From Gemmataceae bacterium (GTDB lineage: Bacteria > Planctomycetota > Planctomycetia > Gemmatales > Gemmataceae): 56,382 nt of DNA. The stretch spans positions 1 to 56,382 of the forward strand of contig SHZZ01000020.1 in NCBI GenBank assembly GCA_009692005.1, given 5' to 3'. The notes under the pieces are model-generated. The model was not told where the DNA came from. It made no database searches and saw nothing but the letters and a program-made list of their open reading frames with translations. Of this stretch, positions 7,446 to 51,671 are shown piece after piece (position 1 is the first letter of the stretch; each line of letters starts with the position of its first letter). The position numbers were made by a program, and so were the translations under genes.

Positions 7446-7853
7446 TCAGTTGCCACCCATCGGGGTTTCATAATACCGGGACATGGCCCGGACCAGAGTG
7501 TAGGCCACCATCCGCCGGTTGATCGGCTTGGGGATGACACTAAACACCGCCGCCTGCTGGGCCTGGCGCAGGATTGCCTCGGTCGGATCCCCGGTCACCA
7601 AAATCGCGGGAATCAAGGCATGGATCTGCCTCAACAAGTGAAGCGTTTCCAAACCGGAGAGGCAAGGCATGTGCATGTCCAGCATGGCCAAATGCACTTT
7701 GGTGAAGCGGATCAAGTCGAGGGCTTCCTCGCCGGAACTCGCCACCAATGCCCGAAACCCCTCCCCTTCAACAATCTCCCTCAGCGTTTCCCTGCACGGG
7801 GAATCGTCGTCGGCGATGAGGATCGAATATTCCTGCTTGGCTGCCAATGCCAT
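7446..7853 (-). CDS. Single-domain response regulator (CheY-like)
   Basis: 135 residues, receiver domain only. Acidic pocket D15-D16-D17 (LIADDD), phospho-acceptor Asp in MLDMHMP, conserved Thr in LVTGD and Lys in PKPI are all present, so phosphorylation competence is expected. No output domain follows. It starts at ATG 7853 with AGGGG upstream and is probably transcribed with groES. The upstream region to 8103 contains an AT-rich stretch with an ATATG...CATAT palindrome (7902-7916), a possible control site. No histidine kinase is in the window. Confidence 0.9.
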   Translation of the reverse strand: MALAAKQEYSILIADDDSPCRETLREIVEGEGFRALVASSGEEALDLIRFTKVHLAMLDMHMPCLSGLETLHLLRQIHALIPAILVTGDPTEAILRQAQQAAVFSVIPKPINRRMVAYTLVRAMSRYYETPMGGN

Positions 7854-8103
7854 GCCCCTAAACCGGGAATCACCCGGGTCTCGCCCCGAGTTACTATTTT
7901 ATATGCAAATCATATACCGGATAAGCCTTCCCGGTGAAGAGGCGCTGTAAACCTTTTAATAATAATGGGTTACAAAAAACAGTCTCTGTCAGAGTTTCCC
8001 CAAATAAACCCTTTTGCTGCCATTGTGGCATTCCTTTGCCAAAAACCCGCCTGCCAAATTAAATGAGGGCAGGAACCAAAAACCCCCCTCCACCCATCCC
8101 GCT

Positions 8104-8685
8104 ATGCACGGTTACCTTGCATCGATGAACCCGCCCCGCATCCGCATTAAAGAACATCGCCGTGTGCGCGCTTGTGAACTCGAACCGCATCCGCAAAACC
8201 CACGCATCCATCCCGAGTTGCAATCCCGCGCACTCGCCGATTTGCTGGCCGAGGTCGGCTTTGCCCGTTCCCTGCTCGCTTATGAAACCACCCAAGGGAA
8301 ACTTCGCCTGATCGATGGGCATCTTCGCCGGGGGCTGCTCGCCGACGCCGAGGTCGTGGTCGAGGTTCTCGATGTCAACGAGGAGGAAGCGCGCGCGCTG
8401 CTCCTGTCGATCGATCCCCTAAGCGCCCTGGCGGTGAACGACGAGCCGGCGCTGGAAGCCTTGCGGCAGCAGGCGGTCACCGCGTCGGCGCTGGTGAGAG
8501 AAATGTGGAATTCCATCGGCAAGGAAGGGGAGAAAACGAAAGAGGCGCTGGCCGATTGCGAAAAGCGTCCGGCCTTGACGGCCAATTACCTGGTGCTGGT
8601 GGATTGCGCAAGCGAACAGGAGCAAGGCCGCCTGCTGGAGGAGTTGCAAGAACGAGGCATGTCATGCAAGGCATTAATTTCCTGA
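8104..8685 (+). CDS. ParB/Srx N-terminal domain protein
   Basis: About 193 residues if ATG 8104 is used. ATG 8125 is also possible, and neither has a clear ribosome site. Residues about 17-110 match the ParB/sulfiredoxin-like fold: a PHPQNPRIHPE segment, then RLIDGHLRRGLLAD, which corresponds to the (D/E)GxxR phosphate/CTP-binding motif of ParB-like proteins. No HTH-rich ParB DNA-binding domain follows; the C-terminus is short. Phage ParB-like proteins of this size are diverse (nucleases, base-modification factors, partition). It lies 11 bases upstream of the ABC ATPase-GNAT gene, so the two probably act together. Confidence 0.75.
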   Translation: MHGYLASMNPPRIRIKEHRRVRACELEPHPQNPRIHPELQSRALADLLAEVGFARSLLAYETTQGKLRLIDGHLRRGLLADAEVVVEVLDVNEEEARALLLSIDPLSALAVNDEPALEALRQQAVTASALVREMWNSIGKEGEKTKEALADCEKRPALTANYLVLVDCASEQEQGRLLEELQERGMSCKALIS

Positions 8686-8696
8686 AAGGAATAAAC

Positions 8697-9809
8697 ATGA
8701 TTGCGCAAGTCGTGTTGGAAACGAAGCTGGAAGAAACGGCGCGCGCCGCCATGGTCCGCGGCATGTTCGATCTGGAAAAACAAACTCATGCCCGCTCGGA
8801 TCTCACGCACTCTTTGCCCCTGGAGAATAAAGAATGGCAAATCGGGTTGATCACCGGGCCCTCGGGGTGCGGGAAAAGCACCCTGGCCCGGGCTTTGTGG
8901 CCCGAATCGTTCAAGCCCCCGGCGCCCTGGCCCGAGGGGAAATCTCTCCTCGATGCCTTCCCTGTTTCCCTGGGCATCAAGGAAATTGTCGAACTCCTTT
9001 CCAGCGTTGGCTTCAGTTCTCCCCCGGCCTGGCTGCGCCCGTTTGAAACTCTTTCCACCGGCCAGCAGTTCCGCGCCACCCTGGCCCGCCTGCTGGCCTC
9101 TGCCCTGGCTGGCGCTGCTCCTACTCCTCTCGTTTGCGATGAGTTCACCTCGGTGGTCGATCGCGTGGTGGCTCGCATCGGGTCGGCGGCGCTGGCCCGC
9201 GTGGTGCGCAAATCCCCCCTGAAATTTGTCGCCTGTTCCTGCCATGCCGATGTCATCGACTGGCTGCAACCCGACTGGGTCTACTATCCTGGGGAGCAGC
9301 GGTTTGACTGGAGGTGTCTTCAGCGACGCCCCGGGATCGAATTGGAAATCCACCGGACTGGGCGCCAGGATTGGACTCTGTTCGCGCCGCATCATTATCT
9401 AAGCCACAGTTTGAATCCCAGCGCCGTCTGTTTCCTGGCCCGCTGGCAGGGCCAGCCGGTGGCTTTTTCCGCCTGGCTGCCTTTCGTTGGCGCCGGGCCG
9501 CTTGCTCGACGAGAACACCGCACCGTTTGCCTGCCGGATTTTCAAGGCGTCGGCATTGGCCAGGCGTTGTCGAATTTCATTGCCTCGCTGTGGAAGGGGC
9601 TCGGCTACCGCGCCCTCAGCACAACAACGCACCCCGGATTGATCGCCTCGAGAAACCGCGCCGGGCCCTGGCGCCTGCGCAGGGCTCCTTCTCTTGCCAG
9701 GGGGAATTCTCCCCTGGGCCATGCCACCACCCGGCTAACTGCCGGTTTTGAATACTTGGGCCCTGCGCTTTCTCCCAGAGAAGCGCGTGAACTCCTCCTC
9801 GCCCGGTGA
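8697..9809 (+). CDS. ABC-type ATPase fused to GNAT-like acyltransferase domain (phage type)
   Basis: 370 residues from ATG 8697 (AAAGGA upstream). The N-terminal half is a soluble ABC ATPase: Walker A GPSGCGKST near residue 58, signature-like LSTGQQFRA and Walker B PLVCDEF. There are no membrane segments, so it is not a transporter. The C-terminal half resembles GNAT-type proteins found fused to such ATPases in phages: FQGVGIGQALSNFIASLW (acyl-CoA pyrophosphate loop position), TTHPGLIASRNR, and a terminal TAGFEYLG. The fusion usually travels with ParB-like genes, as here. A relation to Mom-like DNA modification acyltransferases is a possibility from fold membership, not shown by the sequence. 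Confidence 0.78.
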   Translation: MIAQVVLETKLEETARAAMVRGMFDLEKQTHARSDLTHSLPLENKEWQIGLITGPSGCGKSTLARALWPESFKPPAPWPEGKSLLDAFPVSLGIKEIVELLSSVGFSSPPAWLRPFETLSTGQQFRATLARLLASALAGAAPTPLVCDEFTSVVDRVVARIGSAALARVVRKSPLKFVACSCHADVIDWLQPDWVYYPGEQRFDWRCLQRRPGIELEIHRTGRQDWTLFAPHHYLSHSLNPSAVCFLARWQGQPVAFSAWLPFVGAGPLARREHRTVCLPDFQGVGIGQALSNFIASLWKGLGYRALSTTTHPGLIASRNRAGPWRLRRAPSLARGNSPLGHATTRLTAGFEYLGPALSPREARELLLAR

Positions 9810-40812: not shown

Positions 40813-41199
40813 TTAAGGAAGCAACCCTTCCAATACCAACTGTTCATGAATGACTTTTTTCAAGTCATCCAACCCGGTCAAGGCTTTCAAGGAGACAGCA
40901 GGAACCAAGACCATCCACTCGTTTCCCGGTTTGCGAACCAGAATGGCCGGGAGTTCATCGTCGCGGCCAGTTTTCTGCTTGAACCCATCGCGGTGAAGGA
41001 ACTCCAGTGGAAAGCGAAGTTTGCTCAGGAAGTCGCGCCACTCGCGTCTCATGGAAAAGGCGGCATGGGTCAAAGCGCAAAGGTTGCACGGGTAGGTCGA
41101 AGGGGACATGACCTTATGGGTAATGTCAGCAATGAGGTTAAAGAAACCACTGCTGGCGTTGTAGACGAAAACTATTGTCGGCTTGCTGGGGTTTTCCAT
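40813..41199 (-). CDS. Conserved hypothetical protein
   Basis: 128 residues from ATG 41199 (in-frame 41238 start less likely). It begins KPTIVFVYNASSGFFNLIAD and continues with SPSTYPCNLCALTHAAF and MRREWRDFLSKL, a pattern I recall from short uncharacterised proteins found across many bacteria; the CxxC pair (CNLC) could bind metal or be redox-active. It is divergent from the BMC regulator and shares the regulatory region at 41239-41401. No function known. Confidence 0.75.
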   Translation of the reverse strand: MENPSKPTIVFVYNASSGFFNLIADITHKVMSPSTYPCNLCALTHAAFSMRREWRDFLSKLRFPLEFLHRDGFKQKTGRDDELPAILVRKPGNEWMVLVPAVSLKALTGLDDLKKVIHEQLVLEGLLP

Positions 41200-41276
41200 A
41201 GAGATCGGTCCTTTGAAGGTAGCAGGGAAGGTTACCAAGAGGAGGAGTTTTTGGGAAGATTGGGAAGATTTTGAGA

Positions 41277-41370
41277 TTTTGTGGAATTATTCATGTTATT
41301 TACTTCTCTATTTTCTTGACTATCTATTAAATCATGCCATAATTTTCCTAATAAGTGGTAGTTTGTGGAA
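41277..41370 (+). promoter_or_regulatory. Promoter and candidate operator of the microcompartment operon
   Basis: AT-rich island in GC-rich DNA. TTGACT (41316-41321) and CATAAT (41338-41343), spaced 16 bases, form a good sigma-70-type promoter. Direct repeats TTTGTGGAA at 41278-41286 and 41362-41370 flank it symmetrically at about 30 and 18 bases. They are candidate sites for the DeoR-family regulator encoded next. The tandem TTGGGAAGA-TTGGGAAGA lies just upstream (41251-41268). Confidence 0.6.
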
Positions 41371-41401
41371 GATAAATGCCAATATAACCCAGGAGCCTCC
41401 C

Positions 41402-42181
41402 GTGCTGGTGGAAGAACGCCGTCAAAGGGTCCTTGATCTTGTTAGCTCCAAAGGGTTTGCCTCCTTGGCTGACCTCGCTAACCAAATTCAAGTCTCTGAA
41501 TCGACGGTACGGCGGGATCTGGAGTTTTGGCATCAGCAGGGCCAACTGAGGAGAACCCACGGCGGGGCAATTTTCGTGGGGGATGGCGGGTCGTTTCCTT
41601 CCTTCGAAGAACGGACCGATTCTCAACTGAATGAAAAGCAAGCGGTGGCCCGGGCAGCGGCAGGCCGCGTCCGCGATGGGGAAACTATCCTGCTCGATGG
41701 CGGCACCACAACCCTGGAAGTTGCCAGGCTTCTCTTGGGCCGTTCTCTCCAAGTGGTGACCAACAGTCTGCCCATTGCAGTATTGCTCGCCGGCAGCAGG
41801 GAAACCGATCTCGTTCTTTTGGGCGGCTACATCTACCCCAAGACCGGGGTGGCGCTTGGCCCCTTCACCATTCGCATGATGCAAGACCTGCATGTGCACC
41901 AGACGCTGCTGAGCGTCAGCGGGTTGACCGAGCGGGGGCTGTTCAACAGCAACTTATTATTGGTGGAAACAGAACGGCAAATGATGCGCTGCGCCGACGA
42001 GGTGGTGCTGCTGGCGGACCACACGAAGATTGGCAAGCCGGCGCTGGCCTTTCTCTGCGAATGGTCGGAAGTCGATCTTTTGGTCATTGACAAGCACCTG
42101 CCGGAAGCGAAGAAATCGCTCTTGGCGCAAACGGGCGTGCGGACCCTGGTGGCGGGTCAGGAAGAGGAGTTTGACGGATGA
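41402..42181 (+). CDS. DeoR-family transcriptional regulator of the BMC locus
   Basis: 259 residues from GTG 41402 (AGGAG seven bases upstream); a longer frame upstream would translate the promoter. N-terminal HTH_DeoR: EERRQRVLDLVSSKG, SLADLANQIQVSESTVRRDL then HGGA. The C-terminal sugar-phosphate sensor domain (DeoRC) has EKQAVARAAA, ILLDGGTTTLEVARLL, VTNSLPIAVLL and DLVLLGGYIYP. DeoR proteins respond to phosphorylated sugars; a likely effector is L-fuculose/L-rhamnulose phosphate or a pathway intermediate. First gene of the BMC operon. It overlaps pduL by ATGA, so the regulator and locus are probably co-transcribed. Confidence 0.92.
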   Translation: MLVEERRQRVLDLVSSKGFASLADLANQIQVSESTVRRDLEFWHQQGQLRRTHGGAIFVGDGGSFPSFEERTDSQLNEKQAVARAAAGRVRDGETILLDGGTTTLEVARLLLGRSLQVVTNSLPIAVLLAGSRETDLVLLGGYIYPKTGVALGPFTIRMMQDLHVHQTLLSVSGLTERGLFNSNLLLVETERQMMRCADEVVLLADHTKIGKPALAFLCEWSEVDLLVIDKHLPEAKKSLLAQTGVRTLVAGQEEEFDG

Positions 42182-42867
42182 GCGCGACGGTGGCGATACC
42201 CGTGGGATTGGATCGCAGCCTGGTGGAACGGCTGGTGCGGGAAGCCTTGCAAGGTCATTTGGCGCCAGGGCCGGCTTCACTGCCGCCTGGGCAGCCCAAC
42301 CCCTTGGTGGTGAATGTGTCCGCCCGGCACGCGCATGTGACGCAGGAAGACCTGGAGAAACTATTTGGCAAGGGACATCAGTTGAAGGTGTTCAAGTCGC
42401 TGTACCAGGAGGGGTTTTTCGCTGCGGAGGAAACCCTCACCATCGTCGGCCCCAGGCACCGCATGATCACGAATTTGCGCATCCTTGGCCCCTGCCGCGA
42501 CCACAGCCAGGTGGAGCTGGCCTTCACCGACGCGGTTCAACTGGGGCTGGAAATTCCTGTGCGCAAGAGCGGCGACCACCGCGATAGCCCTGGCTGCTAC
42601 CTCATGGGCCCTGCGGGAATGATTCACTTGCCCCGGGGCGTGATCCGCCACGAGAGGCATGTGCACATGAACTCTGCCGACGCGGCGTATTTTTCCGTGA
42701 AGGATGGCGAGCGCGTTCACCTGCGGGTGAAGAGCGATTGCCCGACAGTATTGGAAAGCCTTTTGGTGCGGGTGTCCAATGGCACCCGTTTGGAAGTCCA
42801 CATCGACACCGATGAGGGCAATGCTTGCAACTATCCCCGGGCAACGGGGTTTGAACTGTTTCGCTAA
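42178..42867 (+). CDS. pduL: PduL-type phosphate acyltransferase (BMC core enzyme)
   Basis: 229 residues. An N-terminal amphipathic helix (DRSLVERLVREALQGHL) is a typical encapsulation peptide, followed by a Pro-rich linker. The two PduL halves show zinc ligands HAH in NVSARHAHVTQEDLEKLFG and H-x-H in RHERHVHMNSADA, plus the late HIDTDEGNA. It swaps CoA for phosphate on acyl-CoA; in this locus lactyl-CoA to lactyl-phosphate, regenerating CoA inside the compartment. Corresponds to pvuC of the described planctomycete locus, if my recollection of the naming is right. Confidence 0.93.
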   Translation: MSATVAIPVGLDRSLVERLVREALQGHLAPGPASLPPGQPNPLVVNVSARHAHVTQEDLEKLFGKGHQLKVFKSLYQEGFFAAEETLTIVGPRHRMITNLRILGPCRDHSQVELAFTDAVQLGLEIPVRKSGDHRDSPGCYLMGPAGMIHLPRGVIRHERHVHMNSADAAYFSVKDGERVHLRVKSDCPTVLESLLVRVSNGTRLEVHIDTDEGNACNYPRATGFELFR

Positions 42868-42920
42868 GGCGCGGCCCGCTTGGGGCGGGTGGCGGGCTGG
42901 CGGATTTTGGAGGTTAGACA

Positions 42921-43214
42921 ATGGCAACACAGATGGAAGCCCTGGGCATGATCGAAACCCGCGGGCTGATTCCTTTGATTGAAGCCAGCGACACGATGCT
43001 GAAGGCGGCGAATGTGAAGCTGGTGGGCTGGTCGAAAATCGGCAGCGGTTTGGTGACCGCGCTGATAACCGGCGATGTGGCGGCGGTGAAAGCCGCGGTC
43101 GATGCCGGCGCCGCAGCCGCCGGGCGCGTGGGCGAAGTCGTGGGCGTGCAGGTGATCCCGCGTCCGCACGAAGATGTCGCCACCCTGCTTCCCGAACGCA
43201 AACCCGCAAGCTAA
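42921..43214 (+). CDS. BMC-H shell protein 1
   Basis: 97 residues, single Pf00936 domain: [56 protein letters not shown]. Pore loop is KIGSG. Forms cyclic hexamers that tile the facets of the compartment. 53 bases after pduL, with AGG-rich leader (GGAGG eight to twelve bases before ATG). Paired with a second, differently pored BMC-H. Confidence 0.95.
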
Positions 43215-43252
43215 AACTGGCAAACTTACACCACACTTTGGGAGATTGAACA

Positions 43253-43549
43253 ATGGCGACAGTGACAACGCGGGGGCCGGCGGAGGCCCTCGGCATGGTG
43301 GAAACCAAGGGATATATCGCGGCCATAGCGGCAACCGACGCAATGTGCAAAGCGGCCAATGTCACCCTGGCGGGACAGGTGCAGATCGGCAATGCCTTTG
43401 TCTGCACTTTCGTACGCGGGGATGTCGGCTCGGTGCGCGCAGCGGTTGACGCCGGTTCGCAGGCCGCCACGGCCAATGGCGAACTGGTTTCAGCCCATGT
43501 CATCGCACGGCCCGAGAAAGATGTCCTCGACTTCTTCCTCGGCAAGTAA
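43253..43549 (+). CDS. BMC-H shell protein 2
   Basis: 98 residues, Pf00936 domain with a seven-residue N-terminal extension (TVTTRGP). [61 protein letters not shown]. The pore region QIGNA differs from the KIGSG of its neighbour, and a Cys lies close behind it, so the two hexamers probably pass different metabolites. Planctomycete loci keep exactly two BMC-H and no tandem-domain (BMC-T) proteins, as here. Confidence 0.95.
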
Positions 43550-43561
43550 CGGAGAGAAGGC

Positions 43562-44737
43562 ATGAAGATCCTGGTGGCCAACTTAGGCAGCACCAGCTTC
43601 AAGTACCGTCTCTTTGAAATGAACGGCGAGAAGCTGCTGGCCCGGGGCGGAGTGGAGCGGATCGGCGCGCCGACCTCGCCTTGCTTCGTGCAATTGGGCG
43701 AATGCAAGGAAGAGGCGCAGGTGAAGGCGCCCGACCACGCGGCAGCGGTGCGCCTGTGCCTGGAGCAGCTAACCAGCAGGGGGTGCCTCAAGGATGCCAG
43801 CGAACTGGCGGCGATCGGCTTCAAGGCCGTTCATGCCAAGGGTGTGACCGGGGCCCAGCGGGTGGATGAGCGGGTTCTGGCGGCCATGGAGGCCTACGCC
43901 GATGTGGCGCCCGCGCACAATCCCCCTTACATCAAGACCATGCGTTTGCTGGCGGAGAAACTGCCGAGCATTCCCCTGGTGGCGGCGTTTGAAACTGGCT
44001 TCCATGAGACCATCGCTCCGGCCGAGAAAAATTACGCCATCCCGGTTGAATGGATTGCCCAGCACGGGATCAAGCGCTGGGGCTTTCACGGCGCCAGCCA
44101 TCGCTTTATCGCGGGCAGGACAGCGGAGCTGCTCGGCAACGCCAAGGCCAGGATCATTTCCTGCCACTTGGGCGGGTCGAGTTCGCTTTGTGCCATCCGC
44201 GACGGGAAGTCGGCGGCCAACAGCCTGGGCATGAGCCCGCAATCCGGGCTGCCGCACAACAATCGCGTGGGCGATTTTGATCCTTTCGCCTTGCCGGTGC
44301 TGCTGCGGGAAACTGGCAAGTCGCTGGAACAGCTTCTGGACGACCTGGCCAATCGCTCGGGTCTGCTCGGGCTGTCGGGGAAGAACGACATGCGCGACAT
44401 CGAAGAAGGATCGGCTCGAGGCGACTCCGGCTGTCGGCTGGCCATGGAGGTTTTCACGGCGTCGATCCGCCACTACCTGGGGGCGTACTTGCTGTTATTG
44501 GGGGGTGCGGATGCCATCGTCTTCACCGGTGGGATCGGGGAAAACTCGCGCTCGTTGCGGCGGGAAGTCTGCCAGGGACTGGATTGGTTTGGCATCACTC
44601 TTGATGAGAAGAAAAATGAAACGGCCCAGGGAGAGGTGGCGATTCACGCCCCTTCCAGCCGCGTGCAACTGTGGATCATGCCGACGAACGAAGAAATCGT
44701 AGTGGCCCGGCAGGCGCGTGACCTGCTGGCGGGTTAA
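43562..44737 (+). CDS. ackA: Acetate kinase homologue of the BMC locus (probable acyl/lactyl kinase)
   Basis: 391 residues. ASKHA kinase of the acetate kinase family: NLGSTSFKYRLFE, GFHGASHRF (catalytic His), SCHLGGSSSLCAIR, FTGGIGENS and PTNEE. It differs from housekeeping enzymes at conserved places: the catalytic Asp of FDTAFH is Glu (FETGFH), GTRSGDIDP reads NNRVGDFDP, and CHLGNG reads CHLGGS. It likely converts acyl-phosphate (lactyl- or propionyl-phosphate) and ADP to acid and ATP, the energy-yielding last step, perhaps outside the shell because no encapsulation peptide is visible. Confidence 0.9.
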   Translation: MKILVANLGSTSFKYRLFEMNGEKLLARGGVERIGAPTSPCFVQLGECKEEAQVKAPDHAAAVRLCLEQLTSRGCLKDASELAAIGFKAVHAKGVTGAQRVDERVLAAMEAYADVAPAHNPPYIKTMRLLAEKLPSIPLVAAFETGFHETIAPAEKNYAIPVEWIAQHGIKRWGFHGASHRFIAGRTAELLGNAKARIISCHLGGSSSLCAIRDGKSAANSLGMSPQSGLPHNNRVGDFDPFALPVLLRETGKSLEQLLDDLANRSGLLGLSGKNDMRDIEEGSARGDSGCRLAMEVFTASIRHYLGAYLLLLGGADAIVFTGGIGENSRSLRREVCQGLDWFGITLDEKKNETAQGEVAIHAPSSRVQLWIMPTNEEIVVARQARDLLAG

Positions 44738-44751
44738 CCAAGGAGTTTTTC

Positions 44752-44985
44752 ATGATCGTGAACATCACCTACTGCACCTCTTGAGGGTACAGGAATTTCT
44801 CCGCCAGTTTGGCGGGGGCTATTCAGAAGGCGCATGGCGACAAGGTTACTGTCAACCAGAAGACCGGCTCGGGCGGGGTCTTCGATGTCGAAATCGACGG
44901 GAAGATGGTATTCCGCAAGTGGGACGAGAACCGCTTCCCCGATAACAAAGAGATCCTTAAAGCCATCGCCGGGCAGTTGAAATAA
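44752..44985 (+). CDS. SelW/Rdx-family selenoprotein candidate (CxxU, TGA read as selenocysteine)
   Basis: 77 residues if the TGA at 44782-44784 is translated. ATG 44752 follows AAGGAG. The sequence reads MIVNITYCTS-U-GYRNFSASLAGA, then GVFDVEIDGKMVFRKWDENR and FPDNKEILKAI, which is the SelW/SelT/SelH (Rdx) thioredoxin-like fold from end to end. Cys8 and the TGA codon 11 make the family's CxxU redox motif exactly where CxxC or CxxU is expected. A hairpin with a G in the apical loop lies 22 bases after the TGA. The frame ends at TAA 44983-44985, ten bases before the next shell gene. A thiol redox role inside or next to the compartment is inferred. Conventional translation would give only ten residues. 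Confidence 0.85.
44798..44818 (+). promoter_or_regulatory. Candidate bacterial SECIS hairpin
   Basis: CCGCCA (44801-44806) pairs with TGGCGG (44810-44815) around a GTT loop. The stem extends by T-G, C-G, T-G to nine pairs. The loop G (44807) is 22 bases after the TGA, within the 16-37 base window accepted for bacterial SECIS elements, which need a G in the first two loop positions. It lies inside the coding frame, as bacterial SECIS elements do. Confidence 0.7.
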
Positions 44986-44995
44986 GGAGTTTCCC

Positions 44996-45313
44996 ATGTT
45001 CGTGGCGCGGGTAACGGGAACCGTGGTGTCAACGCAAAAGGTCGCCTCGATGACGGGGCAAAAGCTGCTGATCGTCGAGCCGCTGCGGATCGATCCTACG
45101 GATCGAGAAAAACTGATCGGCACGGGCCGCAGCTTTGTCGTGGTGGATACGGTCGGCGCGGGCCAGGATGAAACCGTGCTCATCGTGCAGGGTTCAAGCG
45201 CGCGGCTGACCCCGCAGACCGAGAAACTTCCGGTCGACGCCACCATCATTGGCATAGTCGACCGGGTGCTGGTCGGGCAGAAAACAGTGTTCAAAGGCGG
45301 CGAGCGGAACTGA
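44996..45313 (+). CDS. BMC-P (EutN/CcmL) pentameric shell protein 1
   Basis: 105 residues, Pf03319 domain: MFVARVTGTVVSTQKVASMT, GQKLLIVEPL, FVVVDTVGAGQDETVLIVQG, PVDATIIGIVDRV. BMC-P pentamers cap the vertices of the shell. Starts ten bases after the SelW-like stop; GGAG upstream. The domain order and the GAG turn are typical. Confidence 0.95.
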   Translation: MFVARVTGTVVSTQKVASMTGQKLLIVEPLRIDPTDREKLIGTGRSFVVVDTVGAGQDETVLIVQGSSARLTPQTEKLPVDATIIGIVDRVLVGQKTVFKGGERN

Positions 45314-45338
45314 AATTTCCTGAGGAAAGGCAAAAGCC

Positions 45339-46760
45339 ATGCAAGTTACGGATGATCTGGTAAGAAGCGTGGTGCAGCAGGTGCTGGCGAAAATCGGCGT
45401 GGGTGGAAGCCCAGTTTCGCAAGCGGGAAAGTGTGGCGCGGACGGCGTGTTTCAGGAAGTGGAAAGCGCCGTGGCCGCCGCCGCTGCCGCCCAAAAACTC
45501 TTCGAGCGCAAAGGGCTGGAAGAGCGGCGCAAGGCCGTCGCTTGCATCCGCAAGATCTGCCTCGAGCGGGCGGAGGAACTCGGGCGGGAGGAGTTCGAGG
45601 AAACCAAAATCGGCCGCCTGGTGCACAAGATTGAAAAGCTCAAGATCATTGCCGACCGCATTCCCGGGGTGGAGTTTCTCAAGACCGAAGCCTTCAGCGG
45701 CGAGAACGGCATCACCCTGCAGGAATACGCTCCCTTCGGCGTGATCGGCGTCATCACTCCGGTCACTCATTCACTGCCGACACTGGCCTGCAACGCCATC
45801 AACATGCTGGCCTCGGGCAACAGCATGGTGGTCAACCCGCATCCGTCCGGGGCGCGCATCGCTTGCAAGGGCGTGCGCCTGTTCAACCTGGCGATCCGCC
45901 AGGCCATTGGCATCGAAAACCTGATCACGATTATTGAGAAGCCGACCTTGGAAAGCGCGCAGGCGATCTTCGATCACAGGGAAGTGCGCATGCTGTGCGT
46001 GACCGGAGGCCCGGCGGTGGGTCGAGCGGCGCTGCGCAGCCCCAAGCGCGCGGTGGTGGCTGGGCCGGGCAACCCGCCGGTAGTCGTCGATGAAACCGCC
46101 GACCTCGACAACGCCGCCAAGAGCATCATCGCCGGCGCAGCCTACGACAATAACCTTCTCTGCATCGGCGAGAAGGAAGTCTTCGCAGTCGATGCCATCT
46201 TCGAAGAACTGCTGCAGGCCATGGGTAGATACAAGGCGGTTCGGCTCAATGCCCAGCAAGTGGAGGCGCTGACCCAGGCGGCCATGAAACCTTCGGAAGA
46301 CAAAAAATATTTCGTGCCTGCCAAAGAGTTGCTGGGACAGGACGCGGCAATTCTTGCCAAAAAGATCGGCCTGCAGGTTCCCGCGGATACCGAGTTGCTG
46401 TTCGGCGAAACCAAAGAAAGCAATCCCTTTGTTCCCACCGAACAGATGATGCCGTTCGTTCCTTTTGTCCGCGTGCCGGATGCCGAAACCGCCATCGCTT
46501 TGGCCAAAAAGCACGAACATGGTTTCAAACACACCAGCATCATCCACTCGCGCAATGTGGAAACGATCACGCGCATGGGCCGCGAGATGGACACCACTCT
46601 TTTCGTGCAGAACGGTCCAAGCACCGCCGGGCTGGGCAGTGGTGGAGAAGGGTATTTGAGTTTCAGCATCGCCACGCCCACGGGCGAAGGCGTCACCACG
46701 CCATTAACCTTTACGCGCCAGCGGCGGTCGACCACGGTCGGCGCCCTGCGTGTGATCTAA
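45339..46760 (+). CDS. CoA-acylating aldehyde dehydrogenase (PduP/EutE-like), BMC signature enzyme
   Basis: 473 residues. N-terminal encapsulation peptide ([18 protein letters not shown]) and linker, then the ALDH fold: [59 protein letters not shown] and the Cys motif [11 protein letters not shown]. It oxidises an aldehyde with NAD+ and CoA to acyl-CoA; in planctomycete loci the substrate is thought to be L-lactaldehyde, giving lactyl-CoA. It corresponds to pvuI. Start at ATG 45339, AGGAAAGG upstream. Confidence 0.94.
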
Positions 46761-46769
46761 GGAGGCGCC

Positions 46770-47027
46770 ATGCTGACTGGAATCATGGTGGGCACCGCGA
46801 CTTCAACCGCCAAGCACGATAGCTTGAACGGCTGGAAGCTGGCCCTGGTGCAAGCGCAAATGCAAGATGGCTCGCCGGATGGTGAACCTGTGCTGGCCAT
46901 CGACAATCTTGGTGCGGCCATGGGCTCGCGGGTGGTGCTGACAAGCGAAGGCGGCGCCGTGCGCGACATGTTGAAGCGGAACGATTCCCCCGTGCGCTGG
47001 ATGGTGATGGGCCTATGCGACTCGTAA
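46770..47027 (+). CDS. BMC-P (EutN/CcmL) pentameric shell protein 2
   Basis: 85 residues, the compact form of Pf03319: MLTGIMVGTATSTAKHDSLN, GWKLALVQAQ, VLAIDNLGAAMGSRVVLTSE, RWMVMGLCDS. GGAGG seven bases upstream. Its 3' end overlaps the start of the RpiB-like gene by 13 bases. Confidence 0.93.
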   Translation: MLTGIMVGTATSTAKHDSLNGWKLALVQAQMQDGSPDGEPVLAIDNLGAAMGSRVVLTSEGGAVRDMLKRNDSPVRWMVMGLCDS

Positions 47028-47620
47028 ACGGCACAGTTGTGGAGTGGCCGGGAGCTGTGCTGGCTCTGGCCGACCTGAAGAAGCTAGCCGCGGGTCTGGC
47101 GGAGGTGGTGGTCGGGCCGAAGGTGGTTCTGACCCCATGCGCCAGGGAAGAGTTGCAGCGTCTGGGAATCGTGCTGGTGCGGCGCGAGTTGAGGATGGAG
47201 GAAGGAAGTTGGGGCCTGGCGCAGGATCGGCGTCACGCGCTGGTGGAAGCGGCGGTGGCGGCGTTGGCGCGGGAAGGGAAAAAAGGACGCCTGCTTGAGG
47301 TGTCGGGAATATTGGGAGGCGTGGCCCTGGGCCGCGCGGTGGGAGAAAAGGTGGCGCAAGGCATGGTCAAGAGTGCGGTATTGTTTTGCCAGGAACCTGA
47401 AGCGGCGGCCTGCGCGGCGAACAAGCTGCCGGGGCTGCGCGCCGCGGCCGTCTGCGGAGTGCCCCAGGCAAAACGGGCCCAGGCCACCCTGGGCGCCAAT
47501 TTCCTGGCGGTGGAGATGCCTGGCAGGACCTACTTTGAAATCCGCGCTGTCCTCGACCTGGCGGCGCTGACGCCATCTTGCCCCAAGGCCGATCTGGAGG
47601 TGACCGATGCGCGTCGCTGA
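47015..47620 (+). CDS. RpiB/LacAB-like protein embedded between shell genes
   Basis: 201 residues, overlapping the BMC-P genes on both sides (13 and 14 bases). The segment LFCQEPEAAACAANKLPGLR aligns with the ribose-5-phosphate isomerase B active-site strand (family CGTGIGMSIAANK-x-GIRAA) with the Cys and AANK in register, and RAQATLGANFLAVEM matches the following helix. The GTGIG phosphate-turn is lost, so ordinary isomerase activity is doubtful. An N-terminal extension of about 95 residues is unrelated and could mediate shell binding. Conserved in this position of planctomycete BMC loci, to my recollection. Role unknown. Confidence 0.65.
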   Translation: MRLVNGTVVEWPGAVLALADLKKLAAGLAEVVVGPKVVLTPCAREELQRLGIVLVRRELRMEEGSWGLAQDRRHALVEAAVAALAREGKKGRLLEVSGILGGVALGRAVGEKVAQGMVKSAVLFCQEPEAAACAANKLPGLRAAAVCGVPQAKRAQATLGANFLAVEMPGRTYFEIRAVLDLAALTPSCPKADLEVTDARR

Positions 47621-47897
47621 GGTAATCGGCACGGTCACGCTGTCCAAGGTTCACCCGTCCTTGATCGGGGCGCGTTGGATAATCGGCGTGCCTTGCAGTT
47701 TGCAGGCGCTGAAAAAGCAAGGCCCGGGCGACGGCGAGGACCTGGTGATTTTTGACGGAGTCGGCGCGGGCCTGGGAGCCCGAGTGGGATTCAGCGAAGG
47801 TGGCGAGGGCGCGGCCCCCTTTTACCCCGAGAAGAAACCGGTCGACGCCTACGCCGCCTTGATTCTCGACAACCTGGAGATCGACCCCCGTTTTTAG
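47607..47897 (+). CDS. BMC-P (EutN/CcmL) pentameric shell protein 3
   Basis: 96 residues, Pf03319: MRVAEVIGTVTLSKVHPSLI, GARWIIGVPCSL, LVIFDGVGAGLGARVGFSEG, VDAYAALILDNLEI. Third pentamer gene, starting within the RpiB-like gene. Three different BMC-P proteins with two BMC-H is the composition described for the planctomycete/verrucomicrobial compartment. Confidence 0.94.
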   Translation: MRVAEVIGTVTLSKVHPSLIGARWIIGVPCSLQALKKQGPGDGEDLVIFDGVGAGLGARVGFSEGGEGAAPFYPEKKPVDAYAALILDNLEIDPRF

Positions 47898-47923
47898 GGG
47901 ATTAAAATAGAAGGAAGCCTTTG

Positions 47924-48781
47924 ATGTACGCTAACGAATACAAATTGAAAGAGTTCATGTGCGAGATCGGGAGGCGGGTTTATAACCGTGGCTTTGCCGC
48001 CGCCAACGATGGCAACATCTCCATCCGCTTAAACGAGCGAGAAATCCTGTGCACGCCGACCATGGTCTCCAAGGGCTACATGAAACCCGAGGACATCTGC
48101 AAGGTGGATTACGAAGGGAAGCAGTTGGCGGGGATGCGCAAGCGATCCAGCGAGATTTTGCTGCACCTGAGCGTTTATAAAGTCCGCGCGGATGTCAACG
48201 GGGTGGTGCATTGCCATCCGCCTCACGCCACCGCTTTCGCTGTCGCCCACGAACCGATTCCCAAGGCGATATTGCCCGAGGTGGAGGTGTTCCTCGGCGA
48301 GGTGCCGACGGCGGTGTATGAAACCCCGGGCGGGCAGAAATTTGCCGACACCGTTCTCCCCTATGTCAAGAATTGCAACACCATCTTGCTGGCCAACCAC
48401 GGCACGCTGACCTTTGGCCCCGATCTGGAGAAGGCTTACTTCAACACCGAGATCATCGACGCTTATTGCCGCATCCTGTTGCTGGCCAGACAGCTCGGGC
48501 GCGTGCACTACTTCAACGACAAGGAAACAGCCGAGTTGCTGGCCTTGAAAAAGAAGCTGGGCTACGATGATGTCCGTTTCCAGGACAAAGCCTGCACGCT
48601 GCGCGGTGAGAATTGTTTCAACGAAGGCTACGGCTCTTTCAACCCGGAGCATACGGCCTTCCCCGTGACTGAGCAGGATGCCTGGGCCAAGAACAGCAAC
48701 AACCCCGGCATCGATGTCGACTCGCTGGTGAAAAAAATTACCGACCAGGTCATGGCAGCTTTGAAAGGCTCAGCCGCTTAA
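47924..48781 (+). CDS. Class II aldolase (L-fuculose/L-rhamnulose-phosphate aldolase-like), encapsulated
   Basis: 285 residues from ATG 47924. Aldolase class II/AraD family: NRGFAAANDGNISIRL, CTPTMVSKGYM, RKRSSEILLHLSVYK, GVVHCHPPHATAFAV (zinc His pair), LPEVEVFLGEVPTAVYETPG, LLANHGTLTFG (third zinc His). The C-terminus adds a linker and an amphipathic encapsulation peptide (IDVDSLVKKITDQVMAALKG). It should split L-fuculose-1-phosphate or L-rhamnulose-1-phosphate into DHAP and L-lactaldehyde, feeding the aldehyde dehydrogenase in the same shell. Corresponds to pvuN, the defining enzyme of this compartment. Confidence 0.92.
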   Translation: MYANEYKLKEFMCEIGRRVYNRGFAAANDGNISIRLNEREILCTPTMVSKGYMKPEDICKVDYEGKQLAGMRKRSSEILLHLSVYKVRADVNGVVHCHPPHATAFAVAHEPIPKAILPEVEVFLGEVPTAVYETPGGQKFADTVLPYVKNCNTILLANHGTLTFGPDLEKAYFNTEIIDAYCRILLLARQLGRVHYFNDKETAELLALKKKLGYDDVRFQDKACTLRGENCFNEGYGSFNPEHTAFPVTEQDAWAKNSNNPGIDVDSLVKKITDQVMAALKGSAA

Positions 48782-48820
48782 TTCAAAACACCGCGCCAAA
48801 CGAACGGATAGGATTTTCCC

Positions 48821-49156
48821 ATGTTCAGTTTTCGCAAGGACAAGACCGGCTTCTTCGCCACGCTATCCCTCATTCTCGTGATATCGGGCATGGTCATTGC
48901 CACGGGGGTGCTTTTAACCGTGGGCATCCTCCAAGGGAATTGGGAATACTACAGCCTGCCCATTCGCATTGTTCTCGGGGCCTCGTGGATGGCTTGCATT
49001 GTCATAGTCCTCGTTCGCATCGGGGTGTTCGGCGTGCAAAGGCAAAGGAAAAAACTTTTGGAACAAGCCGCCGCCCCCCAGCCGGCGCCGCCCGCAGCGG
49101 AACCGCCCGCACAGGCCCCCCAGCCCAGTGATCCCCAGAAGGAAGGTAACGGATGA
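48821..49156 (+). CDS. Small membrane protein in the BMC operon
   Basis: 111 residues. Two hydrophobic helices (LSLILVISGMVIATGVLLTV and LPIRIVLGASWMACIVIVLV), then a basic RQRKK stretch and a Pro/Ala-rich tail. Stop overlaps the next start (ATGA). No family recognised. It might tether the compartment or assist uptake, but this is speculation from position. Confidence 0.75.
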   Translation: MFSFRKDKTGFFATLSLILVISGMVIATGVLLTVGILQGNWEYYSLPIRIVLGASWMACIVIVLVRIGVFGVQRQRKKLLEQAAAPQPAPPAAEPPAQAPQPSDPQKEGNG

Positions 49157-50187
49157 AAGTCAGCATCATCGGCGGTGGCGGCCTGGTCGGCAGCATGGCG
49201 GCTTACGCTTTGCAATTAGGCGGCGTTGCCAGTGAAATCTGCATCATCGACGCCAACAAGGATGTTGCCCAGGGCGTGGCCCTGGACCTGCTTCAAGGAT
49301 CGGCGCTCACCGCCGACCAGCGCATTTACGCCGGCCCCATGGAAGAAGTCGCCTCCAGCAATATCGTCGTCATCACTGCCGGGCTTCGCCGCAAACCCGA
49401 GGAAAGCCGCCTCGACCTGATCAACCGCAATGTGGATCTCTTCCTCGGCCTGCTCGATCAGGCCAAGGCCGCCGGGCTGAAGGATTCGTCCTACATGGTG
49501 GTGGTCAGTAATCCAGTCGATGTATTAACCTACCTGGCCTGCAAGAGGTCGGGCCTCGATTGGAAGCGGGTGATCGGTCTCGGCACCTTGCTCGACACCG
49601 TGCGCTTCCGCAGCCACCTGGCCAAACGATTGCACACGGCGCCCACCCAAGTGCAGGCCCTTCTCTTGGGCGAGCACGGCGACAGCATGGTGCCAATCTG
49701 GTCGAGCGCCACGGTTGCCGGCTTGCCAATCGAACAGTGGCCGGGGTTCAATCCGCAATTGCAGAAGGAGGCGTTTGAAGAGACGAAGACTGCTGGCGCC
49801 ACCATGATCAAATTGAAAGGCGGCTCCGGTTTCGCGGTCGGCATCTCCATCCGCGAGTTGGTGCAGGCCATCATTCTCGACAACCGCAGGATTCTCCCCG
49901 TCAGCGCCTTGCAGCACGGCCTTTATGGTGTTGACGAAGTCTGTTTGTCGGTGCCAACAGAAGTGGGATGCGGCGGGGTCCGCAAGCAGATTGAATTACC
50001 CTTAACGCCGAAGGAACGGATTGGCATCCAGCAATCTGGCCGGGTGCTGCGCGAGATCATCGACCAGGTGGAAGCGAGAATTGGCCAGGGGCCAGCGGGG
50101 GCGGCCAGCGTCGCTTCAGGCCTGGGGGCGCCGCGGGGTAAAGCGCTGCCCCGGACCGCCTGGCAACCGCCAGCAAGGAAGTCATAA
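49153..50187 (+). CDS. Lactate/malate dehydrogenase family enzyme of the BMC operon
   Basis: 344 residues. Rossmann start MKVSIIGGGGLVGSMAAYAL, Asp-containing second strand CIIDANKDVAQG, VVVSNPVDVLTYLA, GLGTLLDTVRFR, LLLGEHGDSMVP (catalytic His). The substrate-specificity loop reads AGLRRKPEESR: Arg stands where lactate dehydrogenases have Gln102, which usually signals malate/oxaloacetate preference. The C-terminal 40 residues are a Gly/Ala/Pro-rich tail absent from housekeeping enzymes. It may recycle NADH from the aldehyde dehydrogenase. ATGA overlap with the preceding gene. Confidence 0.88.
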   Translation: MKVSIIGGGGLVGSMAAYALQLGGVASEICIIDANKDVAQGVALDLLQGSALTADQRIYAGPMEEVASSNIVVITAGLRRKPEESRLDLINRNVDLFLGLLDQAKAAGLKDSSYMVVVSNPVDVLTYLACKRSGLDWKRVIGLGTLLDTVRFRSHLAKRLHTAPTQVQALLLGEHGDSMVPIWSSATVAGLPIEQWPGFNPQLQKEAFEETKTAGATMIKLKGGSGFAVGISIRELVQAIILDNRRILPVSALQHGLYGVDEVCLSVPTEVGCGGVRKQIELPLTPKERIGIQQSGRVLREIIDQVEARIGQGPAGAASVASGLGAPRGKALPRTAWQPPARKS

Positions 50188-50190
50188 GTC

Positions 50191-50442
50191 ATGGATGAAG
50201 CGCGGATAATAGAAGACCTGATTAAGCTGAAGGCGGGGTACACCGTGGCCCTGGGCGGCGGGCTGGAGATTTGCCAGCTCGACCCCGGCCTTTTTTCCGT
50301 GACCTTTCCCGACAGCGCCGACCTCGATGCCACCGTGAAAGAAAAACGCTTCAAGGATGGCGGGAAGGCTGCGGAGTTCTTTGTGCAAAAACGCCATGCT
50401 TACAAGCTCGGCGACGATTACCTGGAAGGTGATTTGCCATGA
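50191..50442 (+). CDS. Small conserved-looking protein coupled to aldolase-like gene
   Basis: 83 residues, starting three bases after the dehydrogenase stop. Acidic N-terminal helix (DEARIIEDLIKLKAGYTVAL), then beta-prone LEICQLDPGLFSVTFPDS and a helix rich in Lys (VKEKRFKDGGKAAEFFVQKR). No signal peptide or membrane segment. ATGA overlap with the next gene suggests that the two products form a complex. No family recognised. Confidence 0.7.
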   Translation: MDEARIIEDLIKLKAGYTVALGGGLEICQLDPGLFSVTFPDSADLDATVKEKRFKDGGKAAEFFVQKRHAYKLGDDYLEGDLP

Positions 50443-51671
50443 TCAAAAAGTCGCTCGATTTGAAACTCGAACGGATTCACGCCGACCCAAAAAAGCTCAA
50501 GGATTTCATCCTGGCCGACGCCAAGGATCCCGACATGGCGCTGGGGATCGGCGCCACGGGCAAGTCGCCCGAATCTCATCAGGGCGAAACCCGATACCGC
50601 TCCCTGTCGGAGTTCCGCGACATTATCCAGCAGATTGTCGAGCAGAAGCTGGTCGACATCATGCTCATGTCGGCTTCCACGGCCGAGGCCATGGCCCTGT
50701 ATAAAAAGATTTTCGACAACAGCCCGGTCACCCCCGCCGCCAGAGCCAACGACACCACCGATATCCACATCCTGCGCGGGGGCAAGTCGCCCACGCAACC
50801 ATCGATGCCTTTCCGCACCGCCTCCATCGACCATATTCAGTGCGGCTCGTGGAATTGCTCCAGCGAGCAAAGGCAGAAGGGGGTTAACCTCGGCCTCTAC
50901 AGCATCACTTTCAATAATGAGGCGGGATTGGACCGCGCGGCGCTGGAAGAGTACAAGAATTTCCGTCTCGAGGCCGAGAAGAAGGGCTTCCGCCATTTTT
51001 TGGAAGTGTTCGATCCCAACCGGCCGGAAGCGGTGCAGCACGATAAGATCCCCGGTTTCATCAATGATGCCATTGCAAGGGCGCTTGGCGGGGTGACGGC
51101 CAAGGGCCGGCCCGTCTTTTTAAAAATCGTCTACCACGGCGCCAAGTCCATGGAAGAGCTTGTCCACTACGATCCGCACCTGGTGGTGGGGATTTTGGGC
51201 GGGTCGGCCGGAACCACTTACGATGCTTTCAAGTTGCTGGCCGAGGCGAAGAAGTATGGCGCCCGCGCCGCCCTGTTCGGCCGCAAAATCAACAATGCCG
51301 AGCACCAGCTTCATTTCATCCGCTACCTGCGATTCCTCGCCGACGGGCAGATGGCGCCCGAAGAAGCCGTGAAGGCCTACCATGGCGATTTGCAGAAAGA
51401 GGGGATTCAGCCGCACCGATCCTTGCAAGACGACATGCAACTTACCTCGGGCGTGATGAATTATTCCGGCTCGGGAGTGACGATGAGTTTCCCCGAAGGG
51501 GCGACTTCCCCGTTGCCCGGGGCCAAGGACGATTGCGCCTGCAAGGGCGGCGCCAAGGCTTGCCCCTGCGATGCCAAGGTAGGGAAGGGGAAGGAAGTGG
51601 ACTTTAGCAAGATGTCCGCAGCGGAGAAGGTGGCCTATCACCGGGCCAGATGGAACCGGATTTTGGGTTAA
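50439..51671 (+). CDS. TIM-barrel aldolase-like protein (DeoC/LacD-type fold), last gene of BMC operon
   Basis: 410 residues. Regularly spaced beta-strand motifs of a TIM barrel are seen: VDIMLMSASTAEAMAL, VNLGLYSITFNNEA, FRHFLEVFDPN, PVFLKIVYHGAKSMEELV, LVVGILGGSAGTTYDAFKLL, ARAALFGRKI. The Lys in VFLKIVYHG is well placed for a Schiff base as in class I DeoC/LacD/FbaB aldolases. The C-terminal 60 residues carry a Cys cluster (DDCACKGGAKACPCDAK), possibly a metal site. Function in the pathway is unknown. It could handle DHAP or a second sugar phosphate. It ends the operon, followed by REP-like repeats. Confidence 0.7.
   Translation: MIKKSLDLKLERIHADPKKLKDFILADAKDPDMALGIGATGKSPESHQGETRYRSLSEFRDIIQQIVEQKLVDIMLMSASTAEAMALYKKIFDNSPVTPAARANDTTDIHILRGGKSPTQPSMPFRTASIDHIQCGSWNCSSEQRQKGVNLGLYSITFNNEAGLDRAALEEYKNFRLEAEKKGFRHFLEVFDPNRPEAVQHDKIPGFINDAIARALGGVTAKGRPVFLKIVYHGAKSMEELVHYDPHLVVGILGGSAGTTYDAFKLLAEAKKYGARAALFGRKINNAEHQLHFIRYLRFLADGQMAPEEAVKAYHGDLQKEGIQPHRSLQDDMQLTSGVMNYSGSGVTMSFPEGATSPLPGAKDDCACKGGAKACPCDAKVGKGKEVDFSKMSAAEKVAYHRARWNRILG

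Follow-up and report, generated by a model that had tools for sequence, protein, structure and literature searches.

A predicted SelW-type selenoprotein gene within the PVM-type microcompartment operon of a planctomycete clade

INTRODUCTION

What is a reading frame interrupted by TGA doing between the acetate kinase gene and the first BMC-P shell protein gene of a bacterial microcompartment (BMC) operon? The question was raised by a sequence-only reading of 56,382 nucleotides of a Gemmataceae genome (order Gemmatales; assembly GCA_009692005.1, contig SHZZ01000020.1), the whole stretch of DNA hereafter called the window. That reading proposed that the frame is a hidden gene for a selenoprotein of the SelW/Rdx family, which serves or protects the compartment. 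Standard gene calling would truncate this gene, selW, at codon 11.

SelW-like proteins are a known and abundant family of bacterial selenoproteins. In the parts of PMC1794560, PMC1088965, and PMC2398784 that were available to us, the family shares with the product examined here the CxxU motif, the size, and the fold, as well as an in-frame UGA followed by a hairpin with a loop G, but it is not tied there to a microcompartment. PMC1088965 describes the function of these proteins as unclear, takes CxxU to suggest redox activity, and mentions an interaction with glutathione. The supposition that no BMC-linked selenoprotein had been described agrees with the open-access text that could be searched, in which we found none; subscription journals (most of their papers) and supplements lay outside the search. 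Selenium is absent from the main texts of two BMC catalogues (PMC4207490 and PMC8217296), and no open-access text was found in which “metabolosome” and “selenoprotein” occur together. To judge from their titles, the two open-access papers that mention both bacterial microcompartments and selenoproteins do not deal with a BMC-linked selenoprotein. Papers on KSB1 and Desulfitobacterium mention both microcompartment and selenocysteine and handle them separately. To judge by the literature open to search, no selenoprotein before SelW has been linked to a BMC, and SelW would provide a testable handle on the role of SelW-like proteins and on thiol/CoA redox upkeep in catabolic microcompartments.

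RESULTS AND DISCUSSION

Gene content of the microcompartment operon

The annotated genes of the window described here, as well as the signals in and around selW, lie on the forward strand. The first half of the operon consists of a DeoR-family regulator (41183–42181; PF00455 and PF08220; start codon uncertain), a PduL-type phosphotransacylase (42178–42867; PF06130), two BMC-H shell proteins (42921–43214 and 43253–43549; both PF00936), acetate kinase (43562–44737; PF00871), the SelW-type protein (44752–44985), the first BMC-P shell protein, BMC-P1 (44996–45313; PF03319), and a CoA-acylating aldehyde dehydrogenase of the EutE/PduP type (45339–46760; PF00171; 596 bits against PRK15398, NCBIfam cut-off 403). 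The second half continues with BMC-P2 (46770–47027; PF03319), an RpiB/LacB-like protein with a weak match (47015–47620; PF02502), BMC-P3 (47607–47897; PF03319), a class II aldolase (47921–48781; PF00596), a small open reading frame (ORF), a lactate/malate dehydrogenase (49153–50187; PF00056 and PF02866), a second small ORF, and a 410-aa ORF. This gene order is syntenic with that of the operons of relatives.

The original paper on PVM microcompartments is said to be that of Erbilgin from 2014. The type is characterized in PMC4207490 by a class II aldolase as its signature enzyme, together with a DeoR regulator, acetate kinase, and a lactate/malate dehydrogenase, the proposed NAD+ regenerator of PVM loci; PMC8217296 also describes this fucose/rhamnose BMC type. 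The full PVM gene set (aldolase, CoA aldehyde dehydrogenase, PduL, acetate kinase, BMC-H, and BMC-P) is present in the window, and by its gene content the operon is of the PVM type. It has the same regulator, PduL, shell, dehydrogenase, aldolase, and kinase genes as known PVM loci, but differs from them in an extra selenoprotein gene at the junction of acetate kinase and BMC-P1. Within the limits of the literature search, the selW-bearing operon is a so far undescribed form of the PVM operon.

The selW gene and its predicted product

The selW frame of 77 codons opens with ATG at 44752, contains an in-frame TGA at 44782–44784 (codon 11), and closes with TAA at 44983–44985. It is preceded by the ribosome-binding site AAGGAG at 44740–44745, and the orthologues have a purine-rich site at the same position. 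These landmarks are where the sequence-only reading had placed them. The read-through product, MIVNITYCTSUGYRNFSASLAGAIQKAHGDKVTVNQKTGSGGVFDVEIDGKMVFRKWDENRFPDNKEILKAIAGQLK, matched the Pfam Rdx family (PF10262) over residues 3–72 with an E-value of 1.1e−17 and 64.4 bits (cut-off 22.6), and it also matched the NCBIfam profile TIGR02174 (CXXU_selWTH; 62.6 bits, cut-off 34.2); a narrower profile, NF041051 (SelTWH_Campy), was not met (72 vs 88 bits). As claimed, the TGA falls within the CxxU motif of a full SelW/Rdx protein, with codon 11 as the U of C8-T-S-U11.

In an AlphaFold model of the product (pLDDT 94.2), the elements follow one another as strand-helix-strand-strand-strand-helix, and the CTSU motif is located between strand 1 (residues 2–8) and helix 1 (residues 14–28). 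The model superposed on the SelW-family crystal structures 2obk/2fa8 with a TM score of 0.93 and on mouse SelW (2npb) with a TM score of 0.83. No obvious extra targeting or encapsulation peptide was found on the 77 residues, and no obvious extension beyond the fold.

Orthologues and selection downstream of the TGA

Among 102 genomes of the source order, we found 14 further close SelW homologues (56–81% identity; four other genera), each with one internal TGA. When every locus was re-read, the TGA stood at codon 11 in 15/15 orthologues, always within ITYCTSUGYR; neither a Cys form nor a loss of residue 11 occurred among these 15 BMC-linked sequences. The sequence-only reading had proposed to align homologues at the same locus for Cys or Sec at this codon, and all of them have TGA. 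It had also conceded that resequencing might turn the TGA into TGC or TGT; the presence of the same TGA in 15 separate assemblies excludes an error of sequencing.

The orthologous operons, which represent five genera, carry selW between acetate kinase and BMC-P1; in one of them, the contig ends just upstream of selW, and the acetate kinase side is not visible. The operon-like spacing noticed earlier on both sides of the gene (14 bp upstream and 10 bp downstream in the window) has similar counterparts over the 15 genomes (12–51 bp and 10–59 bp, respectively), with ribosome-binding sites, and in the window the site of BMC-P1 (44984–44989) overlaps the selW stop codon. On the 3′ side of the TGA, dN/dS was about 0.05–0.47 in the pairs for which it was computable; synonymous sites were saturated in two pairs. 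This pattern points to purifying selection downstream of the TGA and rules out a true stop followed by unused sequence.

Conservation of a hairpin downstream of the UGA

A hairpin of the bacterial SECIS type is predicted at 44798–44818, with a conserved core at 44801–44815 and an AGUUU loop at 44806–44810, in which the G at 44807 is separated from the UGA by 22 bases. It fits the architecture given in PMC1088965, where bacterial SECIS elements lie directly downstream of the UGA and have a small apical loop with a G. The RNAfold centroid contained eight pairs, to which a ninth (U-G) can be added, in keeping with the nine-pair hairpin and the distance first proposed. The folding energy of the single sequence was unremarkable (z = −0.31), so the sequence alone is no proof of a hairpin, and an Rfam scan of the selW region gave no match, no Rfam model recognizing the structure.

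More can be learned from the alignment of the 15 sequences. The third bases of the codons at U+6 to U+10 (C, C, T, G, and G) are identical in all 15, and neighboring four-fold codons vary freely; the frozen third positions thus lie exactly over the hairpin. The invariant AGUUU loop is formed by the Ser codon AGT and the Leu codon TTG, which make up only 8.6% of Ser codons and 18% of Leu codons, respectively, in the neighboring operon genes. The stem C-C-R-C-C / G-G-Y-G-G is preserved through an exchange of G-C for A-U (seven vs six sequences), and one change from C-G to U-G also keeps the pairing. Of the hairpin alignment cells, 89.4% were paired, compared with a shuffle mean of 81.3%, and 0/500 shuffles reached as high a value; structures slid along the alignment paired worse than the actual register. 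Because the compared sequences are related, the number of shuffles cannot be read as a probability, and more weight falls on the frozen third positions. By these comparisons, the hairpin that follows the UGA is real and constrained at the RNA level.

Selenocysteine machinery and the reading of the UGA

The selenocysteine machinery, for which a search of the genome had been suggested, is present throughout in the source assembly (4.19 Mb; completeness score 100%). SelA (554 bits) and SelB (360 bits) adjoin each other on contig 84, SelD (351 bits) is on contig 47 and has an in-frame TGA of its own, and tRNA-Sec with the anticodon UCA (tca; 65 bits) is on contig 72. Of the 14 other carriers, 11 also have a SelB that scored above the cut-off; the remaining three genomes are 59–88% complete. 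SelB and tRNA-Sec would decode UGA11 as selenocysteine, guided by the hairpin immediately downstream.

That the TGA is instead a true stop, and the downstream frame a decaying remnant or a chance similarity, is favored by standard annotation, which would end at codon 11, and by the unremarkable energy of the single hairpin; this explanation is refuted by the orthologue comparison, in which all 15 assemblies have the TGA, dN/dS is below 0.5 in every computable pair, and codons are frozen only over the hairpin. The full Sec machinery also speaks against it, and hardly any probability remains to it. Just as negligible is the insertion of an ordinary amino acid through a reassigned code or a suppressor tRNA, which would likewise leave a frame open through the TGA, but TGA ends BMC-P1 (45311–45313) and several selW orthologues, the genome has tRNA-Sec and SelA/B/D, and residue 11 occupies the CxxU site. 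By comparative evidence, then, 44752–44985 is confirmed as a real SelW/Rdx selenoprotein gene; the incorporation of selenocysteine has not been shown by protein data.

A second SelW selenoprotein in the source genome

The source genome encodes another SelW selenoprotein (contig 47, 8578–8799; motif CSKUNYEP, with UGA in CxxU), directly upstream of selD on the minus strand (7588–8799 for the locus as a whole); the in-frame TGA of this selD lies within CAGUAGK. SelD adjoins a SelW locus in five more genomes of the order. The two SelW proteins of the source genome both belong to the Rdx family and both have UGA in CxxU, but they share only ~30% identity and differ in tree branch and gene neighborhood. 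The BMC-linked form has the invariant ITYCTSUGYR and GGVFDV/GGIFDV, whereas the other SelW proteins of the order have GGCFEL/GGCFEV. In a SelW tree, the BMC-linked sequences formed their own clade (local support 0.99), separate from the other SelW of the order; the BMC-linked SelW therefore did not arise simply by recent copying of the selD-adjacent one. Where an Rdx gene is recognizable in this order, it is mostly a TGA-containing selenoprotein and Cys forms are rare; Cys-type copies are rare in the wider phylum too.

Distribution and origin of the selW-bearing operon

The operon PduL was found in 45 of the 102 genomes of the order, and 15 of the 45 have SelW. In 28 of the 30 SelW-less cases, both junction genes are visible and acetate kinase directly abuts BMC-P1, with a gap of −10 to 154 bp, which is too short for selW. 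In the other two, the contig ends within acetate kinase or before it, and the former genome belongs to a genus otherwise carrying SelW. When eight operon proteins were analyzed with IQ-TREE, the operons with SelW were monophyletic (SH-aLRT 99); a FastTree run gave them as paraphyletic, with weak support (0.49 and 0.87). A derived insertion of SelW into the operon fits these data best, and since the SelW-bearing operons form one clade in the IQ-TREE analysis, selW would have been inserted once and then inherited vertically.

Among the PduL and Rdx matches listed for 392 genomes of the phylum, none lay close together except in the window's genome. A GTDB scan of 84,980 species genomes yielded 13 carriers, all of them planctomycete metagenome-assembled genomes. 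Their isolate names, from which the habitat is inferred, refer mostly to lakes and reservoirs and in one case to an estuary. A Gemmata-related freshwater lineage is described in PMC6461901, with rhamnose/fucose uptake reported as favored at the class level, and we infer that the SelW carriers may correspond to this lineage.

As a whole, the observations are best explained by a translated, selenocysteine-containing SelW that has become fixed in the PVM operon of one planctomycete clade, a reading to which we assign a probability of roughly 0.85. Such a protein would link selenium supply to the breakdown of algal methyl-pentoses (fucose and rhamnose) in this clade.

Possible function of SelW

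The product would have the thioredoxin-like SelW fold, with the CTSU redox motif ending strand 1. Its gene is probably transcribed as part of the operon and probably translationally coupled to BMC-P1, so SelW would be made whenever the compartment is made. In the PVM pathway, lactaldehyde would pass to the CoA-acylating dehydrogenase; the putative catalytic residue of this enzyme, Cys275, occurs in 39/41 operons. As the sequence-only reading also reasonably suggested, we infer, with about even odds, that SelW is a thiol/selenol oxidoreductase that keeps this catalytic Cys and CoA in the reduced state during aerobic lactaldehyde metabolism. Its expression, redox partner, substrate, and location, as well as the redox activity, are inferences. 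Most PVM operons of the same order are without selW, and therefore the pathway itself does not require SelW.

A real selenoprotein might also have a general cytosolic redox role and merely be under fucose/rhamnose control, without any role in the compartment. Elsewhere in the phylum, SelW-like proteins occur widely without a link to BMCs, and the lack of an obvious targeting extension would suit such a role; however, the position in the operon is kept in 15/15 operons over five genera, with no loss seen, and the genome already has the SelW selenoprotein next to selD. This possibility remains a serious one, although we consider it weaker than upkeep of the dehydrogenase and CoA. It appears unlikely, though by no means negligible, that SelW is a dedicated component of the shell or the lumen, for example one that recycles a private thiol pool. 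The gene lies amid the core genes for shell proteins and enzymes, with tight spacing to BMC-P1, and CoA-acylating chemistry requires free thiols, but there is no obvious encapsulation peptide, and gene position alone is no proof of encapsulation. Neither encapsulation nor contact with the shell has direct support. It is at present doubtful that SelW is held in or on the shell, where its selenol would keep active either the aldehyde dehydrogenase or a private pool of thiols and CoA; if SelW were a true compartment component, it would be the first BMC selenoprotein, and the organelle would depend on selenium supply.

Cysteine content and unassigned ORFs of the operon

We compared the cysteine content of the window operon (42178–51671) with that of loci L094–L122. 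The idea that extra compartment cysteines accompany SelW was rejected because the trend was the opposite, with fewer cysteines in many proteins of SelW-bearing operons: the mean number of Cys per protein in SelW-bearing vs other operons was 2.9 vs 4.5 for lactate dehydrogenase, 8.6 vs 10.7 for the aldolase, 3.0 vs 7.1 for the RpiB-like protein, and 0.9 vs 2.2 for BMC-P3. Flanking genes showed a similar but smaller drop with SelW-bearing operons, and the carriers form one clade; therefore, no functional meaning is attached to the trend.

Three ORFs in the second half of the operon have no clear family. The small ORF between the aldolase and lactate dehydrogenase genes (48821–49156) has no family match and appears membrane-like, with two apparent hydrophobic segments. 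The 83-aa ORF at 50191–50442 has no Pfam or NCBIfam match, and tblastn matched it only in SelW-bearing operons (12 vs 0), divergent versions elsewhere not being excluded. The 410-aa protein (50439–51671), which is conserved at 60–77% in most of the PVM operons compared, matched no Pfam family; its one NCBIfam match, to an aldolase-type synthase, is marginal, and it carries a C-terminal Cys cluster (CACKGGAKACPCDAK).
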